In this document: positions 24,552 to 40,130 of the stretch, one piece after another
How the letters are laid out: each line of letters opens with the position of its first letter
Position numbering within the stretch: the stretch's first letter is position 1
NCBI RefSeq assembly: GCF_031456545.1
Contig: NZ_JAVDUV010000002.1
Span: 558,001-622,000 of the forward strand
Length of the DNA stretch: 64,000 bases
Source of the DNA: Agromyces sp. 3263
GTDB taxonomy: Bacteria; Actinomycetota; Actinomycetes; Actinomycetales; Microbacteriaceae
Direction: 5' to 3'
Notes under the pieces: model-generated
What the model was told of the DNA's origin: nothing
Database searches by the model: none
Seen by the model: the letters and a program-made list of their open reading frames with translations, nothing else
Translations under genes and position numbers: made by a program

Positions 24552-25811
24552 TCACAGAATCTCCTCGAAACGGACACGCTTACCCTCGAACACAAACGCA
24601 TTCATGCCCGACGACGAACGCTCACCCTTCAAATTCGAGAACCACGACGAACCAGGATCAGACGCCGGCCCAACAATGACCCAACGCTTATCACCCGACT
24701 GATACTTGCGGTACGAATGCCAATGCCCGACAAGCAGGTAGTCGGCATCCCATGTGGGCATGCGCCCATGATCCTGCTTCGACCACCACTCACCCATACG
24801 GTCAGCACCCGACGACTGGTGACCATGCACCATGCCCACAGACACCGTGTCAAGCTTCACCGTCATCGACTCCATCAGAGCCTGAGGGAACTCGAACCGC
24901 ACGTTGGGGAGCACATCAAGGATGCGTTGGGTGTCCTCGAGCTGACGGCCCACAGCGATACCGAAATCGGCGTGCGGGTTGCCCGCGTCAGCTTTCAACC
25001 CGGTACGCCAACGCCCATGGTTCGACGTGACCCGCGCATCAACAACCTCACCCACGAGAGGGGCGATGATTTTGAGCGACTGCAAATCCATTTTGAACGA
25101 CTGCACCAGCATGTGCGGCACATCAAGGTCGTTCGTGTCACGCTGCGAGTTCGTCGAACAGGTGTTCTCGATACCGTCGCCCGTGCGTGCGAGAAGCACT
25201 TGCCGGGGCCGGTACTCACGAATGTAGTCAGCGAACCTGGCGTACGAGTTCAACACCCGAGCCTCAGTCTCAGGCGTACCACCATCGAAGTCCGTCTTGC
25301 CCCACTGCTCATCGGTGGGCTGCAACACGGCAGAGTCCACCAGGAACTCACGCTTCGCCGGCACGTACGTGAAACCCTCAACGAACTTCGACGCCGCAAC
25401 CCAATCAACGGAACCGACAGCGTCAGACGCGGACTTGGGGCGAACATTGTTGAGCTTGTTCCAGAACCCACCAAGCGGGTTCGAAGTCCAACCCCACGTG
25501 AACGACACTTCGTCAGGGTTCTGACCCTTTGAGCGGATGAAGTCGCAGTAGTCTTCGAACCCCCACGCCGTCTCACTGAACCGAACATACGAGGCGGAAC
25601 CGTCATGGTTGTGAGTCTCGGACTCGCCAGACGACACGGTCGAAGTGGAACGTTCGAGGAGCGGCGCACCAGTGGTAAGACGCGACCGGTACTTGTTCAC
25701 AGCCGACTTGGCGATCCCCCACTTGCGGGAAACCTCACCACCCGACAATGCCAGGTCTTTCAGGTCAACCATAAAATCGGGGTTATCGAGCAGGGGGGAA
25801 CGCTGAGACAC
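24552..25811 (-). CDS. Calcineurin-like metallophosphoesterase with HTH N-terminus (419 aa)
   Basis: The GTG start at 25811 has GGGG 6 bases upstream. Residues ~15-45 (LALSGGEVSRKWGIAKSAVNK) look like a helix-turn-helix. The C-terminal half has GDGIENT (211-217), TSNHGRW (262-268), VHGHQS (328-333) and VGHWHS (361-366), the metal-binding pattern of calcineurin-like phosphoesterases. It may be a phage nuclease or phosphatase that binds DNA through its N-terminus. Such genes are common upstream of the terminase in actinobacteriophages. Confidence 0.8.
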   Translation of the reverse strand: MSQRSPLLDNPDFMVDLKDLALSGGEVSRKWGIAKSAVNKYRSRLTTGAPLLERSTSTVSSGESETHNHDGSASYVRFSETAWGFEDYCDFIRSKGQNPDEVSFTWGWTSNPLGGFWNKLNNVRPKSASDAVGSVDWVAASKFVEGFTYVPAKREFLVDSAVLQPTDEQWGKTDFDGGTPETEARVLNSYARFADYIREYRPRQVLLARTGDGIENTCSTNSQRDTNDLDVPHMLVQSFKMDLQSLKIIAPLVGEVVDARVTSNHGRWRTGLKADAGNPHADFGIAVGRQLEDTQRILDVLPNVRFEFPQALMESMTVKLDTVSVGMVHGHQSSGADRMGEWWSKQDHGRMPTWDADYLLVGHWHSYRKYQSGDKRWVIVGPASDPGSSWFSNLKGERSSSGMNAFVFEGKRVRFEEIL

Positions 25812-26004
25812 GATTGGCCCCTTTCGGGGAGTCCGTTTTACGAGCTGAGCCCTGTTGAGTTGTTGGGCCGGCCGCACCTTTACGTGGCTCCGGTGTGTTG
25901 AGTTGTGTGGGTGTGTTGTTGCCGTCAACCCCACACGGGTGGCAACATTTCCGGGCTATAGCGTGTGGCACTGGTCCCGTCCGGACAACACCCGTTGCCC
26001 GTTG
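25812..26004 (-). promoter_or_regulatory. Leader region of phosphoesterase gene
   Basis: A 193-bp non-coding gap between tRNA-Leu and the phosphoesterase. It holds a CCCC-GAAA-GGGG hairpin (25,818-25,829) that includes the Shine-Dalgarno of the GTG start. A TTGACG lies at about 25,931-25,936 on the minus strand, but without a good -10 box. Translational control by the hairpin is inferred. Confidence 0.4.
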
Positions 26005-27234: not shown

Positions 27235-27841
27235 GGTCTGCCTCGCTCATCTCTTCGACCAATTCTTCCACCGAGTCTGCCCCAACCCATTCGGCGTCGC
27301 ATGTTTCCACACGACACATAGCCCGCACAGACCGGTAAGGGTTCGCGTGGTCGTACATCACCGCAACCGGGGAGGCACGCAACGTGTCGTCAGGGCCAAC
27401 CCAGTTGACTGCTTTGCACACCGGGCATGCGCCGGCGAGCGGGACGGTTTTGGGCGGGTCCAACAGTTCGACGATCGTGTACGCCCAACCCCGCAACGCT
27501 TTAACGTAGAAGTCCGCCTCACCGGTGCCGCCCAGGAACGCAACATGCCACCGCCTGAGCGATTGCACCGCGTCCTGCCGATCGTGTTTTACGTTGACGA
27601 GCCGGCACCAGTCACCCAACTGTGTGCGAATGACTGTCAGCCGGTACAGGGCTTCGTCGTTCAACACCGACCCTGTCGCGCTACCTCCCCCGCCACCGTT
27701 GCCGATTGCGGACGTAACCGCCTGCTCGAGCTGCGCCAACAGCGGGTCGTGGTGGACGGTGACGGTGGTGTTGTCGTCGCGGATGACTTTGGTGCGTGAC
27801 GGTTTGGTGAGCGCGTTGACAGCATCCGACAGGTCAGTCAT
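27227..27841 (-). CDS. Phage protein with zinc-ribbon C-terminus (204 aa)
   Basis: Unknown. A helical N-terminal half (residues ~30-130, LTVIRTQLGDWCRLVNVKHDR) with a Gly-rich linker (GNGGGGGS) is followed by CPVC (about 139-142) and CRVETC (about 176-181), a probable zinc ribbon. It follows the methyltransferase gene with a 4-base overlap. Similar proteins are widespread in actinobacteriophages, without known role. Confidence 0.75.
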   Translation of the reverse strand: MTDLSDAVNALTKPSRTKVIRDDNTTVTVHHDPLLAQLEQAVTSAIGNGGGGGSATGSVLNDEALYRLTVIRTQLGDWCRLVNVKHDRQDAVQSLRRWHVAFLGGTGEADFYVKALRGWAYTIVELLDPPKTVPLAGACPVCKAVNWVGPDDTLRASPVAVMYDHANPYRSVRAMCRVETCDAEWVGADSVEELVEEMSEADHG

Positions 27842-28725
27842 GCGATGCCTTCCAAGTTGAGTACGGGCTGCGCGAATCGGGTACGCAGCGACAAGTCGAG
27901 GTAATCGCGGTTGAGGTCGATGCCGATGTACTTGCGGCCTTCCTGCGTTGCGACCATGCCGGTCGTTCCCGAACCCGAGAACGGGTCAAGCACGGTGTCG
28001 CCGGGTGCGCTGCCCGCGAGGATGCACGGGCGGATCAGCTCGGGCGGGTAGACCGCGAAATGCGCGCCTGAAAATGGGACAGGGGCGATCTCCCAGACTG
28101 TGCGCTTGTTCCGCGTAGACAGGTCCGCGCGCCCGAATCCTGCCTGCGACGCCTCGACCCCTCCCGCGTCATTTCGGTTCGGGTTCGCGCGGATAGAGTG
28201 CCGCTTGGTGGCGCTGTACCGCTCAGCGTGGGCGCGGTTCTCGGGTCGCACCTGATCCGCGACCGCGACTGCGTCGTAGTAGTACCGGGGTGACTTCGCA
28301 AGGAGGAACAGGTATTCGTGAGCCTTTGTCGGACGGTCGGTCACGGACTCGGGCATAGGGTTCGGCTTCGCCCAGATGATGTCCGAGCGGAGAACCCACC
28401 CGTCGTCCTGCAACGCGAACGCGACACGCCACGGAACGCCAAGGAGTTGCTTCCCCGCTCCGTACGAATCCCCGAGGTTCAGCCACAACGTGCCGTCATC
28501 GGTGAGGACTTCCCGGAGATCACGAAACAGGAACAGCAGGCGTGTGATGTACTCCTCAAGAGACCGTTCCGCGCCGATCTGCCCGTCTTCGCCGTAGTCG
28601 CGAAGACCGAAGTACGGCGGCGACGTCACGATCGTCCGCACCATGCCACCCTCAAGTTTTTCGGCCACACGCTCCGCGTCTCCGTGGTACAGCGTCACCG
28701 CGTCATCCGTGTAGTACGGCTTCAC
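27838..28725 (-). CDS. DNA methyltransferase, beta-class (295 aa)
   Basis: The GTG at 28725 overlaps the upstream stop by 4 bases and has GGGAGG upstream, so it is preferred to the ATG at 28737. TSPPY at 34-38 (motif IV) and DPFSGSGTTG near residue 255 (motif I, AdoMet) mark a beta-class N4-cytosine/N6-adenine DNA methyltransferase. It is distinct in length and sequence from the one at 23,644. No restriction partner is nearby. Probably anti-restriction or a role in the phage cycle. Confidence 0.9.
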   Translation of the reverse strand: MKPYYTDDAVTLYHGDAERVAEKLEGGMVRTIVTSPPYFGLRDYGEDGQIGAERSLEEYITRLLFLFRDLREVLTDDGTLWLNLGDSYGAGKQLLGVPWRVAFALQDDGWVLRSDIIWAKPNPMPESVTDRPTKAHEYLFLLAKSPRYYYDAVAVADQVRPENRAHAERYSATKRHSIRANPNRNDAGGVEASQAGFGRADLSTRNKRTVWEIAPVPFSGAHFAVYPPELIRPCILAGSAPGDTVLDPFSGSGTTGMVATQEGRKYIGIDLNRDYLDLSLRTRFAQPVLNLEGIA

Positions 28726-28910
28726 TTCGCCTCCCATTGGATGTTTGAACGCCAATACGTCGGCCCGCCCCAAGGAGCAAACCCGAGAGCGTTCAAAACG
28801 TCGCGGGCATCGGCGGAATACGCCCTCCACGCGTTCGGATGCATGTCGATGTCAGACATGGACAGATGGCGCGCAACCTTTTCGATGAGCCATTCCGGGT
28901 ACTCGTTCAT
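28722..28910 (-). CDS. Small phage protein (62 aa)
   Basis: Unknown. It reads MNEYPEWLIEKVARHLSMSD then WRAYSADARDVLNALGF, two amphipathic helices, and is coupled to the methyltransferase. Confidence 0.65.
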   Translation of the reverse strand: MNEYPEWLIEKVARHLSMSDIDMHPNAWRAYSADARDVLNALGFAPWGGPTYWRSNIQWEAK

Positions 28911-35960: not shown

Positions 35961-36131
35961 CTACGCCTCGGGAAGTTGCTCGAGGAACGTTTCGTAGTCG
36001 TCGGCGAGCACCAGGGTTGTGCGGCCGACCTTGCGGGCGGCGATCCGGTTCTCACGGATGAGACCTTCGATGTATGACTCGGACTTGCCCAGCTCGTCAG
36101 CGAGCGCCGGCACCGTATACGCCCTACGCAT
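35961..36131 (-). CDS. Excisionase-like small HTH protein (56 aa)
   Basis: MRRAYTVPALADELGKSESY is followed by LIRENRIAARKVGRTTLVLADD, the HTH_17/AlpA-MerR-like fold of small excisionases. It is expected to bend DNA at attP and favour excision. The ATG overlaps the stop of the Cro-like gene by 8 bases, so it is expressed with it from the leftward promoter. Confidence 0.75.
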   Translation of the reverse strand: MRRAYTVPALADELGKSESYIEGLIRENRIAARKVGRTTLVLADDYETFLEQLPEA

Positions 36132-36366
36132 GGTCGGCTCCGATCAGCGCGTCGGGTGCAACCTCGAGGTAGAAGGCAAGGTCGAAGAGGAGCCACGTGT
36201 CAACGCGCTCACCGAACGCCTTCAAGATGGTGTGGGGGCTGATGCCGATCTCAGCGGCAAGCCAGTCCATGTTGCGTCCCCGCTCAGCGAGGAGGGCCTT
36301 CGTGTTCGTTCCTACTGTCCGCGCAACCTCTTCGGTGCTTCGGAGGGGAACTGCTGTGTTGGTCAT
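36124..36366 (-). CDS. Cro-like HTH repressor (80 aa)
   Basis: Residues ~15-60 (VGTNTKALLAERGRNMDWLAAEIGISPHTILKAFGER) are a lambda-repressor-type HTH. The ATG lies about 7 bases from the -10 box of the leftward promoter, so its mRNA is probably leaderless. Divergent from the plus-strand repressor-like gene across an operator region; it probably acts as the lytic-side regulator. Confidence 0.75.
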   Translation of the reverse strand: MTNTAVPLRSTEEVARTVGTNTKALLAERGRNMDWLAAEIGISPHTILKAFGERVDTWLLFDLAFYLEVAPDALIGADHA

Positions 36367-36508
36367 GTAGACCAGTATTGCTTGGTCTCGGAGACCAATA
36401 CAAGACCAAAAGGCCACTGAAATCAGGGAAAACCCTTAGATTGTGAATACCTCAGGGGTAACCCTGAATTGGTCTGGTAAACCTACAAAGATTGGTCTTT
36501 ATCCAGAT
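36367..36508. promoter_or_regulatory. Divergent control region with repeated operators
   Basis: A perfect 17-bp palindrome TTGGTCTCGGAGACCAA (36,382-36,398) lies between a leftward -35 (TTGTAT, 36,398-36,403) and -10 (AATACT, 36,374-36,379). The 7-mer TTGGTCT or its complement recurs at 36,403, 36,469 and 36,492. A second family, AGGG-N4-CCCT, occurs at 36,425-36,436 and 36,454-36,465 (the latter extended to TCAGGG/CCCTGA). These are likely sites for the repressor and Cro. Confidence 0.7.
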
Positions 36509-37476: not shown

Positions 37477-37632
37477 CTAGGCGCGGTCGGCTTCCTCGAT
37501 CATCGCAATCAGTTCATCGCGGGTCGGTAGCGGCGGCTCGCACTCCGGGTCGCGCAGTACAGGCCCGCCCCGAAGGGTCTCGGGGAAGTACCAACCCGTA
37601 GCACGGTGAGAAACGTGCGGTGGCCTAGGCAT
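37477..37632 (-). CDS. Small protein coupled to integrase (51 aa)
   Basis: Unknown. MPRPPHVSHRATGWYFPETLRG, then an acidic helix (TRDELIAMIEEADRA). Its ATG overlaps the integrase stop by 8 bases (ATGCCTAG), so it is translated with it. It could be a recombination directionality or regulatory partner. Confidence 0.6.
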   Translation of the reverse strand: MPRPPHVSHRATGWYFPETLRGGPVLRDPECEPPLPTRDELIAMIEEADRA

Positions 37633-38797
37633 GGTCGGTCTCCTTCTTTTCGAGCATTGCGGAGAACCGTTCCATCGCGTCTGTGAGTCGCGGACGGTTG
37701 CCCTTGGTTTTGTACGCCTGTGTCATGGACCGGTTCGAATGTCCGACGATTTCTATTTTCACGTCATCGTCGACACCGGCCGCGTACAACAAGTCAACGG
37801 CCGTGTGCCGCAGGAAGTGGAGTGGCACGTGCTTGTCGGTCAGGCCAACATCCGTGTACCAGGTCTTCCACGCCGCAGACGCCCGTGACGGTTCGATGGG
37901 TTGCCCGTCAGCCCTGGCGAACACGAGACCGTACGGGTTCGACGGTGAACGACGACGGTGCGCCTCGAGCATCGACTTGAGCGGGTCGACCAACGGGATG
38001 ATGCGCCAGCCTGATTTCGACTTGGGTCGGGTCAGGTACAGCTTCCCGGTGAGGTGTCGTGCTTCGAAGGTGCCGTCCATGTCTTTGATGCGTTGCAACT
38101 GCCATGACAGGTCGATGACGTCGGTTACGCGGTCCCATTCGAGGGCGAGCAGTTCGGAGCGTCGAATGCCGGTGAGTAGGTAGGTTGCCCAGAGGACGGG
38201 GGCGGGGTCGTATGCGTCGGACTCGAGTGATGCGCGCGCGTAGTCGAGTACGGTGATCGCTTCGTCTACGGTGAGCGCTTCACCATCGGAGCGTCCCAAC
38301 TTTGGTGCGTCTACGAGCGTCGCAACATTGCGGCCCACCCGACCCTCGCGTACCGCATCCGTTAGGGCTTTAGAGAGGAGCCTGTGGGTTGTGAGGGCGT
38401 ACGTGGATGACAGGCCGGCGTCGTTCATGTGGTCGTGTAGGCGTCGGATGTGCGCCGCCGTCAACTTGTCGAGACGCACCTTGCCGAGTACGGGGATGAC
38501 CTGCTTCTCGAGCTGGCGACGGTACGTGTACAACGTGGACGGGCGCACACGTTTCGCGGCGACTTTGTCGAGCCAGTACGTCAACCATGACTCAAGGGAC
38601 TGCGATGCCGTAGGCAGGTCTCCCGTGCGCTCGAGTTCCCTTCGGATCTCCGCGAGCTTCTTGAGCACGACCGCCTTCGACTTCGACGTGACGATCTTCT
38701 TCCGGCGCTTCCCGTTGTGCGGGGGCAGTTCGATCGCCGCGCACCACATGCCATCCTGGGCGCGCTGGTACACGCTGCCCTCACCGCGACCGCGCAT
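37625..38797 (-). CDS. int: Tyrosine integrase (390 aa)
   Basis: The ATG at 38797 overlaps the HNH stop by one base (TGATG). Residues 1-60 are the arm-type DNA-binding domain (GEGSVYQRAQDGMWC, NGKRRKK); ~65-165 the core-binding SAM-like domain; ~175-390 catalytic, with Arg212/213, Lys259-261, His327-x2-Arg330, His353 and Tyr362. It recombines phage attP with the tRNA-Gly gene. It lies close to attR and is oriented leftwards. Full length for the family. Confidence 0.95.
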   Translation of the reverse strand: MRGRGEGSVYQRAQDGMWCAAIELPPHNGKRRKKIVTSKSKAVVLKKLAEIRRELERTGDLPTASQSLESWLTYWLDKVAAKRVRPSTLYTYRRQLEKQVIPVLGKVRLDKLTAAHIRRLHDHMNDAGLSSTYALTTHRLLSKALTDAVREGRVGRNVATLVDAPKLGRSDGEALTVDEAITVLDYARASLESDAYDPAPVLWATYLLTGIRRSELLALEWDRVTDVIDLSWQLQRIKDMDGTFEARHLTGKLYLTRPKSKSGWRIIPLVDPLKSMLEAHRRRSPSNPYGLVFARADGQPIEPSRASAAWKTWYTDVGLTDKHVPLHFLRHTAVDLLYAAGVDDDVKIEIVGHSNRSMTQAYKTKGNRPRLTDAMERFSAMLEKKETDHA

Positions 38798-39285
38798 CAG
38801 TCCCACCATCCTTGTCGTTGCGGCAGGGGCGACAACGGTCGCGGTTCCGTGCCTTCGTACACATAGTCGGTTCGGTTGCCCTTGGCGTTGTTGCACTCCC
38901 AGCAGATGATCTGGATGTTCTCGATCGCGTCGGACCCTCCGAGCGCGACGGGCACGATGTGATCTTGGACACAGTTGAACGTGTCGAGGGGAGTCTTGCA
39001 GTACCGGCAATGGGAGGTCGACCGCAGCAGCGCGATTGCCTCAGCGCGGGAGTGGGTTCCTAGTTCGCGTGCAGCGGCCATGTATTCGGCGCGCGTCCCA
39101 ACGGGGCGAAGGTCAAGCTCGGAGCGCCACTGCTCGAGCACGGCTGCGGCTTCTTCGCGGGCGCTCTTGACTGCCATGCGACGCCGGCGCTTGCCGTTCT
39201 CCTTGGGCATTGCCATGCTCACGCACCACCGCCCGTCTGCCGCCCGCTGGTACAGAGACCCTGCCCCTTTGCGTCGTTCTCGCAT
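38797..39285 (-). CDS. HNH nuclease fused to integrase-like arm-binding domain (162 aa)
   Basis: Residues 6-55 (GAGSLYQRAADGRWC, NGKRRRR) align with the first 55 residues of the integrase encoded next in the operon: GxGSxYQRAxDGxWC, then P..NGKRR and a helix ending in R.EL. Residues 90-140 are an HNH core: Cys93/Cys96, Asp108-His109, Asn123, Cys128/Cys131 and Asn132. GGGGGAG lies before the ATG. It is the first gene next to attR. A nuclease directed to integrase arm sites is inferred; I know of no described family with this fusion, but could not search. Confidence 0.85.
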   Translation of the reverse strand: MRERRKGAGSLYQRAADGRWCVSMAMPKENGKRRRRMAVKSAREEAAAVLEQWRSELDLRPVGTRAEYMAAARELGTHSRAEAIALLRSTSHCRYCKTPLDTFNCVQDHIVPVALGGSDAIENIQIICWECNNAKGNRTDYVYEGTEPRPLSPLPQRQGWWD

Positions 39286-39303
39286 GTTCTCCCCCGCCTG
39301 TCC

Positions 39304-39324
39304 ACTTAACCCGCAACTTAACCC
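39304..39324. repeat. Direct repeats ACTTAACCC, candidate integrase arm sites
   Basis: Two exact 9-mers (39,304-39,312 and 39,316-39,324), 12 bp apart, between attR and the HNH-int operon. Closely spaced direct repeats beside the core are typical arm-type integrase sites. They could bind both proteins that carry the shared N-terminal domain. Confidence 0.45.
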
Positions 39325-39333
39325 CGACCGTTC

Positions 39334-39402
39334 AGGGATATACCCCTACAGTATGTGCCAGTCTCCCGGAATCATGCGGAACGCCCTTGGTTTCTAGACC
39401 AA
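39334..39402. promoter_or_regulatory. Operator-like repeats between attR and int operon
   Basis: TTGGTTT-CT-AGACCAA (39,387-39,402) resembles the immunity palindrome TTGGTCT-CGG-AGACCAA, with a spacer one base shorter. AGGG-N6-CCCT (39,334-39,347) resembles the second operator family. Their presence suggests the HNH-int operon is under immunity control. No clear promoter boxes were found. Confidence 0.5.
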
Positions 39403-39414
39403 TTCTATCATAAT

Positions 39415-39465
39415 CCTCAGTCTTCCAAACTGATTACGCGGGTTCGATTCCCGTCATCCGCTCCA
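39415..39465 (+). other. attR: 3' part of tRNA-Gly (TCC)
   Basis: The sequence runs from the anticodon arm TCAGT-CTTCCAA-ACTGA (anticodon TCC, 39,424-39,426) through the T arm GCGGG-TTCGATT-CCCGT to the acceptor strand CATCCGC, discriminator T and CCA (39,463-39,465). The D arm and 5' acceptor strand are missing; upstream sequence is phage. This is the right junction of an integration into tRNA-Gly. The intact gene should be at attL, left of the window. Confidence 0.93.
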
Positions 39466-39632: not shown

Positions 39633-40130
39633 ATGACCGACACGAAGACCGCACCGAAGAGCACGAAGACCGGAGACCACGCCGACGTCGCGGCGGGCGT
39701 CGCGCAGTACCTCACGCCCGTCGTCCACGAACTCGTCGCGCTCGTCGTCAACGGAAAGCAGGCGCACTGGCATGTGCGCGGCGTGAACTTCATCGCCGTG
39801 CACGAGCTCATCGACGACGTCGTGGCGCACGCCCAGGAGTGGGCCGACCTCGCCGCCGAGCGGGTCGTCGCGCTCGGCCTGCCGATCGACGGGCGCCTCG
39901 CCACCGTCGCCTCGAAGAGCGGCGCGGCGAACCCGAAGCTGGGCTTCCAGCCGTACGAGGAGGCCATCTCCGACGTGGTCGCGCAGATCGACCTCGCGAT
40001 CGAGAAGGTGAACGCCGCGATCGAAGGGCTCGACGAGCTCGACCCCGCGAGCCAGGACGTCGTCATCGAGATCCGCCGCGGCCTCGACAAGGACCGCTGG
40101 TTCCTCTTCTCCCACATCGCCGTCAAGTAG
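39633..40130 (+). CDS. dps: Dps, DNA-protection ferritin (165 aa)
   Basis: The Dps pattern is clear: NGKQAHWHVRGVNFIAVHELIDDVVAHAQEWADLAAERVVALG, with the inter-subunit ferroxidase His/Asp/Glu residues (HWH..H..D..E). It stores iron, removes peroxide and shields DNA in stationary phase. AAGGGTG precedes the ATG. It is the first host gene right of the prophage, 167 bp from attR, so its promoter region is intact but now borders the prophage. Confidence 0.95.
   Translation: MTDTKTAPKSTKTGDHADVAAGVAQYLTPVVHELVALVVNGKQAHWHVRGVNFIAVHELIDDVVAHAQEWADLAAERVVALGLPIDGRLATVASKSGAANPKLGFQPYEEAISDVVAQIDLAIEKVNAAIEGLDELDPASQDVVIEIRRGLDKDRWFLFSHIAVK

Follow-up and report, generated by a model that had tools for sequence, protein, structure and literature searches.

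A predicted arm-directed HNH nuclease beside a prophage integrase, and separate arm–nuclease fusions at the same place in other phages

What does a nuclease gene that carries an integrase-type DNA-binding domain do at the attachment end of a prophage? The question is raised by a 162-aa protein encoded in the 64,000-nt stretch of DNA analysed here (the window). Its gene (38797..39285, minus strand, ATG start) comprises codons for an N-terminal arm-type domain (residues about 5–58; 39112..39273, minus strand), located by BLASTP and by an HMM built from integrase arms only (residues 3–58), and for an HNH_5 core (residues 93–140; CxxC, DH, CxxC, N; 38866..39009, minus strand), located with Pfam. 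The surrounding prophage (∼41.5 kb) is inserted in tRNA-Gly, and its terminase, portal, tape measure and tail genes lie in the window. The neighbouring tyrosine integrase (390 aa; 37625..38797, minus strand) was recognised by Pfam (Phage_integrase, 1.6e-16) and PHROGs (integrase, 4e-58). The nuclease TGA overlaps the integrase ATG, as the TGATG junction in the initial annotation had it. The attR core (49 bp, the 3′ part of tRNA-Gly(TCC); 39415..39463, plus strand) is identical to the left att copy (attL, G000:C2:555896-555944), which completes tRNA-Gly(TCC). Counted inward from attR, the nuclease gene comes first, with the att core on one side of it and the integrase on the other.

The 129 bp from the core to the nuclease start (39286..39414, plus strand) were designated the P-arm region by position; putative arm-type sites and a promoter are placed here. 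A repeat search returned two copies of ACTTAACCC in this region (39304..39312 and 39316..39324, both plus strand, the second 12 bp from the first) and no others within the 64-kb window; they form a tandem pair at distances of 18 and 30 bp before the start codon of the nuclease. A 9-mer repeat arose by chance in 3.1 % of shuffled arms. The copies may be arm-type sites or else int-operon operators, and the other prophage end gave a chance-level match only. Further features of the surroundings were recorded. The sequence at G000:C1:1758960-1759007 is 88 % identical to the att core, and is possibly a further tRNA of the same kind. Two small overlapping HTH genes, one HTH_17/excisionase-like (35961-36131, minus strand; PHROG 6.5e-4) and one weakly repressor-like (36124-36417, minus strand), are perhaps an excisionase and a lysogeny switch. 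An exonuclease and a DNA methyltransferase of the prophage were assigned by PHROGs (24552-25934 and 27838-28830, both minus strand). The first host gene to the right of attR (39633-40130, plus strand) presumably encodes a Dps-like protein, from a motif recognised by eye.

Both halves of the protein were verified separately. Residues 93–140 matched Pfam HNH_5 (6.4e-14) and HNH (1.7e-11), and the CxxC...DH...CxxC-N core exceeds the curated HNH_5 cut-off. In an alignment of 29 nuclease sequences of the family, 18 columns are invariant, among them the HNH residues C93, C96, D108, H109, C128, C131, N132 and K135; the full HNH core read from the sequence at the outset is therefore confirmed. The N-terminal half (residues 4–58) aligned with residues 2–56 of the integrase (BLASTP, 22/55 identical, E 1e-12), a range that contains the match of residues 6–55 to 4–53 first noticed by eye. 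Structure prediction, which the initial annotation had proposed, was carried out for the nuclease with AlphaFold2 and gave a model of high confidence (mean pLDDT 92.4), in which the N-domain consists of three strands and one helix. Integrase arm domains and AP2 domains have a common fold; Pfam AP2 remained below its curated cut-off in the window nuclease (13.6 vs 33.3 bits). PADLOC gave no family match across most of the protein and only weak matches in the HNH part (best 5.1e-05, residues 90–143).

Homology of the arm domain was assessed with profiles from which the neighbouring gene was left out. The integrase-only arm HMM, built without the window's own integrase, scored the nuclease at 53.4 bits; of 2000 shuffled N-domains, 1402 scored at all, with a maximum of 4.5 bits, so the match is not due to chance. 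The reverse HMM, built from the 29 nuclease N-domains alone, picked up the window's integrase at 4e-22. The homology to integrase-type arms is thus beyond chance without any contribution from the adjoining integrase. Among 139 ORFs with the HNH part, 136 lacked the arm N-domain in the HMM check, and the three that had it are copies of the window gene. Two ordinary HNH_3 homing-type nucleases, Nappy gp90 and Watermelon gp6, gave no match to the arm HMM (1.9 and -2.7 bits). Taken from its sequence, the 162-aa protein is a real, conserved fusion of an arm-type domain and an intact HNH_5 domain.

The arm was described at the outset as the integrase's own arm-binding domain. This was not borne out. 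When the nuclease arm was compared with 98 distinct integrase arms, the own integrase (40 % identity) ranked 7th, and the nearest arm of all was that of another nuclease, P0002 (37/59 identical; the database's copy of the window gene aside). Identity of 40 % does not prove a site preference common to the nuclease and its own integrase. A recent copy of the own integrase's arm was considered as well, and the same two results do not support it. The arm–HNH fusion is an older unit, one that travels as a nuclease.

A family of such proteins was gathered by single-sequence and profile searches of a large protein set. Among 120 proteins (P0002–P0121), the integrase-only arm HMM gave 38 a score of more than 15 bits; apart from P0113, which is a fragment of an integrase, these are nucleases with the arm (37 proteins). 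Their sources (ena, lgn, jgi) are mostly short contigs and therefore probably metagenomic. The initial annotation had allowed for a broken integrase remnant found only here, and the 37 further proteins led to the rejection of that hypothesis. Two scans of viral contigs, from which 19 loci and 80 of 135 loci were kept, showed no arm–HNH_5 gene besides that of the window in the kept loci, and two further viral-contig scans gave none. The window gene was likewise the only one in a collection of genomes from 84,980 species (no hit in one search, 18 loci in another), and 398 genomes of the same bacterial family yielded no further arm–HNH_5 gene among the matches listed. The genomic context of arm–HNH_5 genes is known for the window gene alone.

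The history of the family was examined in arm trees. In a tree of 142 arms, which took in the integrase fragment P0113 labelled as a nuclease, nuclease and integrase arms are interspersed, and the HNH5 label changes eight times, of which at least three changes are forced. A single origin of the HNH_5 arms was not rejected (AU p 0.141 without P0113). A thinned tree, the thinning of which was chosen after the first tree had been seen, gave ten changes, five of them forced (AU p 0.194). For 16/39 nuclease arms an integrase arm is closer than the arms of family members with HNH parts ≤55 % identical, and for 9/39 it is closer than any nuclease arm. Arm and HNH similarities within the family correlate (Spearman 0.44), as expected if the two parts were largely inherited together. 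Repeated arm capture from, or exchange with, integrases is only suggested within the HNH_5 family.

The same kind of fusion was found in other, unrelated phages. Through its arm, the window protein matches PHROG 16880 ("endonuclease"), a GIY-YIG nuclease with a C-terminal arm. It is encoded by the mycobacteriophages ThetaBob (gp46), Yoshi (gp55) and Demsculpinboyz, where its gene immediately precedes, and overlaps, that of a tyrosine integrase. Three distinct phages (6/50,697 phage records) have ≥80 % of this GIY-YIG–arm nuclease in one place. Identity between its arms and those of the adjoining integrases is about 60 %, and these integrases rank 2, 4 and 5 among the 98. By scanning every ORF in integrase loci, a third kind was identified on IMG/VR contig 3300031953_000093 (locus L149), an HNH_3 nuclease with a C-terminal arm (49.3 bits) just before the integrase; that scan added no other HNH ORF with an arm, and the arm of this one is unlike that of its own integrase (rank 78). 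The proposal to look for arm–HNH architectures beside integrases elsewhere was thus answered in part: HNH_3–arm was found in addition to GIY-YIG–arm, and a second arm–HNH_5 gene was not. Across the five fusions the own integrase is never the best arm match (ranks 7, 2, 4, 5 and 78 of 98), with small score differences for the first four and not for L149. Where position was examined, the nuclease is placed after the attP core and before the integrase.

Several details of these loci were noted in passing. The nuclease gene overlaps the integrase gene in each of the three GIY-YIG loci (L138–L140) and in the window, and the Yoshi junction is TGATG, as in the window. In the RefSeq records of ThetaBob and Yoshi (NC_048788.1, NC_042030.1) the integrase itself is annotated "endonuclease", a label that was perhaps transferred via the common arm domain; the GenBank versions have integrase. 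Arthrobacter phage Hestia (L142) has two tyrosine integrases in opposite orientation, one gene apart (genes 36 and 38). Contig IMGVR 3300032125_000010 (L335, 98-463, plus strand) has a 122-aa ORF of little beyond an integrase-type arm (61.9 bits), ∼2 kb upstream of an integrase, which is possibly a natural competitor for arm sites.

The frequency of nucleases at this position was estimated from 214 loci with an integrase ORF (160 distinct integrases, 123 of them with ≥400 nt upstream). A stricter selection, which required a recognised arm and 400 nt of upstream sequence, left 93 distinct integrases; for 76 of these, an ORF of ≥70 aa on the same strand ends beside the integrase. Pfam assigned three of the 76 ORFs to GIY-YIG, one to HNH_5 and one to HNH_3, and no other DNA nuclease family appeared among the best 25 of 35 Pfam families (single-member families outside these 25 rank below 7e-4); PHROGs were in agreement (best 25 of 81 families). 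Nucleases, the window gene included, thus make up 5/76 upstream ORFs, and all five have the arm (best 25 of 35 Pfam families). Since the GIY-YIG genes all belong to one family, the five nucleases amount to three kinds of fusion; one has the arm at the N-terminus and two have it at the C-terminus. The loci were fetched through this integrase group, and the count applies to that group and is silent on other integrases.

A comparison of near-identical genomes was possible for the GIY-YIG gene. Yoshi (L202) and the nuclease-less locus L206 are 96–97 % identical over 863 nt to the left and 1332 nt to the right of the site, and differ more beyond 863 nt to the left. The GIY-YIG–arm gene (L202 2704-3171, 468 nt) stands in place of 16 nt (L206 2950-2965), an insertion of ∼0.45 kb. 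Identity in 60-nt steps falls to 92, 77 and 70 % over the last ∼140 nt before the insertion (the P arm beside the tRNA-like core) and to 77 and 82 % in the 120 nt with which the integrase gene begins (arm-domain codons); the remaining steps are at 95–100 %, except for 81 % at the far right edge of the alignment. RitSun and L206 have 99.8 % identity in a 554-nt piece across the site, where RitSun has no annotated gene. The gene is consequently present or absent at an otherwise intact site, and it seems that the integrase can do without the nuclease. The Yoshi/L206 pattern would be expected after homing with co-conversion, or after exchange of a cassette made up of P arm, nuclease and arm domain. 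A gene-less relative of the window prophage was not found among 60 genomes of the genus (nearest integrase 47 %), and homing of the window gene therefore rests on analogy with the GIY-YIG case.

The best reading of these data is a homing-type or rival-directed nuclease, predicted to be aimed at attP arm sites, because separate arm–nuclease fusions occur in the same place beside integrases. The chances are judged about even that the protein is a chimeric endonuclease whose integrase-type arm domain steers the HNH nuclease to the arm-type repeats of attP regions; targeting of attP arms as such is likely. Other integrases match the arms better than the own one does in 5/5 fusions, so targets in other phages fit better than service to the own integrase, and we infer a preference for the former. 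Of the roles considered in the initial annotation, a homing element that copied the domain and a nuclease that cuts attP of competing phages would be the best-supported versions.

The predicted course of events would begin when a related temperate phage without the gene enters the same cell by co-infection or superinfection. The nuclease would bind the arm sites in the attP of the other phage and would cut or nick near its attP–int junction, and the break would disable the rival's integration module. In homing of this kind, the break would be repaired from the carrier, and the rival would acquire the nuclease gene together with the arm-domain codons of the integrase and a portion of the P arm. 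The carrier would be spared if the insertion separates its arm sites from the cut site, or if its own arms have diverged. Translation coupled to that of the integrase would time expression to integration or excision.

Three other explanations were weighed against this reading. The gene might be an ordinary free-standing homing-type HNH gene, with an AP2- or arm-like domain that recognises something else and a place beside the integrase that is due to chance or to insertion-tolerant phage ends. HNH–AP2 homing nucleases are indeed known (PMC10448857), and the arm of the window protein resembles that of another nuclease more than that of its own integrase; yet AP2 itself falls below the Pfam cut-off, the arm HMM passes over the two ordinary HNH_3 homing-type nucleases, and three nuclease types have the arm at the same place, with no arm-less DNA nuclease seen there (5/5, best 25 of 35 Pfam families). 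This explanation appears unlikely, though it is the strongest of the three.

More improbable is a role in the recombination of the phage itself, as an accessory or regulator that occupies or nicks the phage's arm sites, and so tunes integration or excision or autoregulates the int operon. The overlap with the integrase start would suit such a role, as would the tandem repeats that precede the nuclease start codon by 18 and 30 bp, but the own integrase is never the best arm match in the five fusions (by small differences in the first four), double-strand cutting of the own arms would do harm, and the GIY-YIG counterpart is absent from the near-identical sisters RitSun and L206, which keep the integrase; assistance to the phage's own excision, as proposed initially, received no specific support. 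That the gene is a functionless relic, in which the remains of a broken integrase became attached to an HNH gene by accident, is scarcely credible: nothing specific speaks for it beyond the look of the arm, a duplicate-like piece adjoining the integrase, and it is opposed by the 37 further proteins with the same arm, the 18 invariant columns in 29 sequences, HNH residues included, and the high-confidence AlphaFold2 model.

For the attP-directed reading, the recurrence of arm and nuclease suggests a recurring way to aim nucleases at phage integration sites. A broader proposal, put forward tentatively and at somewhat less than even chances, is that arm domains serve repeatedly as an aiming module: three or more nuclease types, unrelated to each other, would separately have become attP-directed, homing into and disarming the integration modules of rivals and driving joint change of arm sites and arm domains. 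If this is true, temperate phages gain a direct weapon, or a selfish element, against each other's integration, a reason is given for integrase arm sites and arm domains changing together (of which the Yoshi P arm–nuclease–arm-domain cassette would be an instance), and nucleases directed at recombination sites become available as a natural toolkit.

In titles and the opening parts of abstracts, with subscription journals mostly outside this coverage, no description was found of a nuclease fused to an integrase arm domain, nor, in titles and abstract openings, of the fusion in PHROG 16880. That family (ThetaBob gp46, Yoshi gp55) resembles the window gene as a nuclease with an arm directly upstream of an integrase, in Yoshi with the same TGATG, and differs in having GIY-YIG instead of HNH_5 and a C-terminal arm. 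The arm-binding domain of tyrosine integrases is homologous to the nuclease over ∼55 residues, whereas the nuclease is devoid of the recombinase domains. The HNH–AP2 homing endonucleases (IPA-HNH), which have HNH N-terminal and AP2 C-terminal (PMC10448857), are likewise small HNH nucleases with a single DNA-binding domain; the window protein has the reverse order, with its arm N-terminal, AP2 below the cut-off, and integrase arms as close relatives. The nearest tested precedent is the origin-directed nuclease Odn of phage ICP1 (gp88). The N-domain of Odn and the RepA_N domain of a rival element are 42 % identical, and purified Odn cuts the replication origin of that element (PMC8263062). Both are chimeric phage nucleases with a targeting domain that resembles the DNA-binding domain of a mobile element (42 % in Odn, 40 % in the window), and the targeting domain of the window nuclease is homologous to the DNA-binding domain of the machinery of its presumed target. 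Odn combines RepA_N with T5orf172 and acts at a replication origin, whereas the window protein combines an arm with HNH_5 beside an integrase, and its cutting is only predicted. The known kinds are homing-type or chimeric directed nucleases, and the arm–nuclease fusion is a variant of them.
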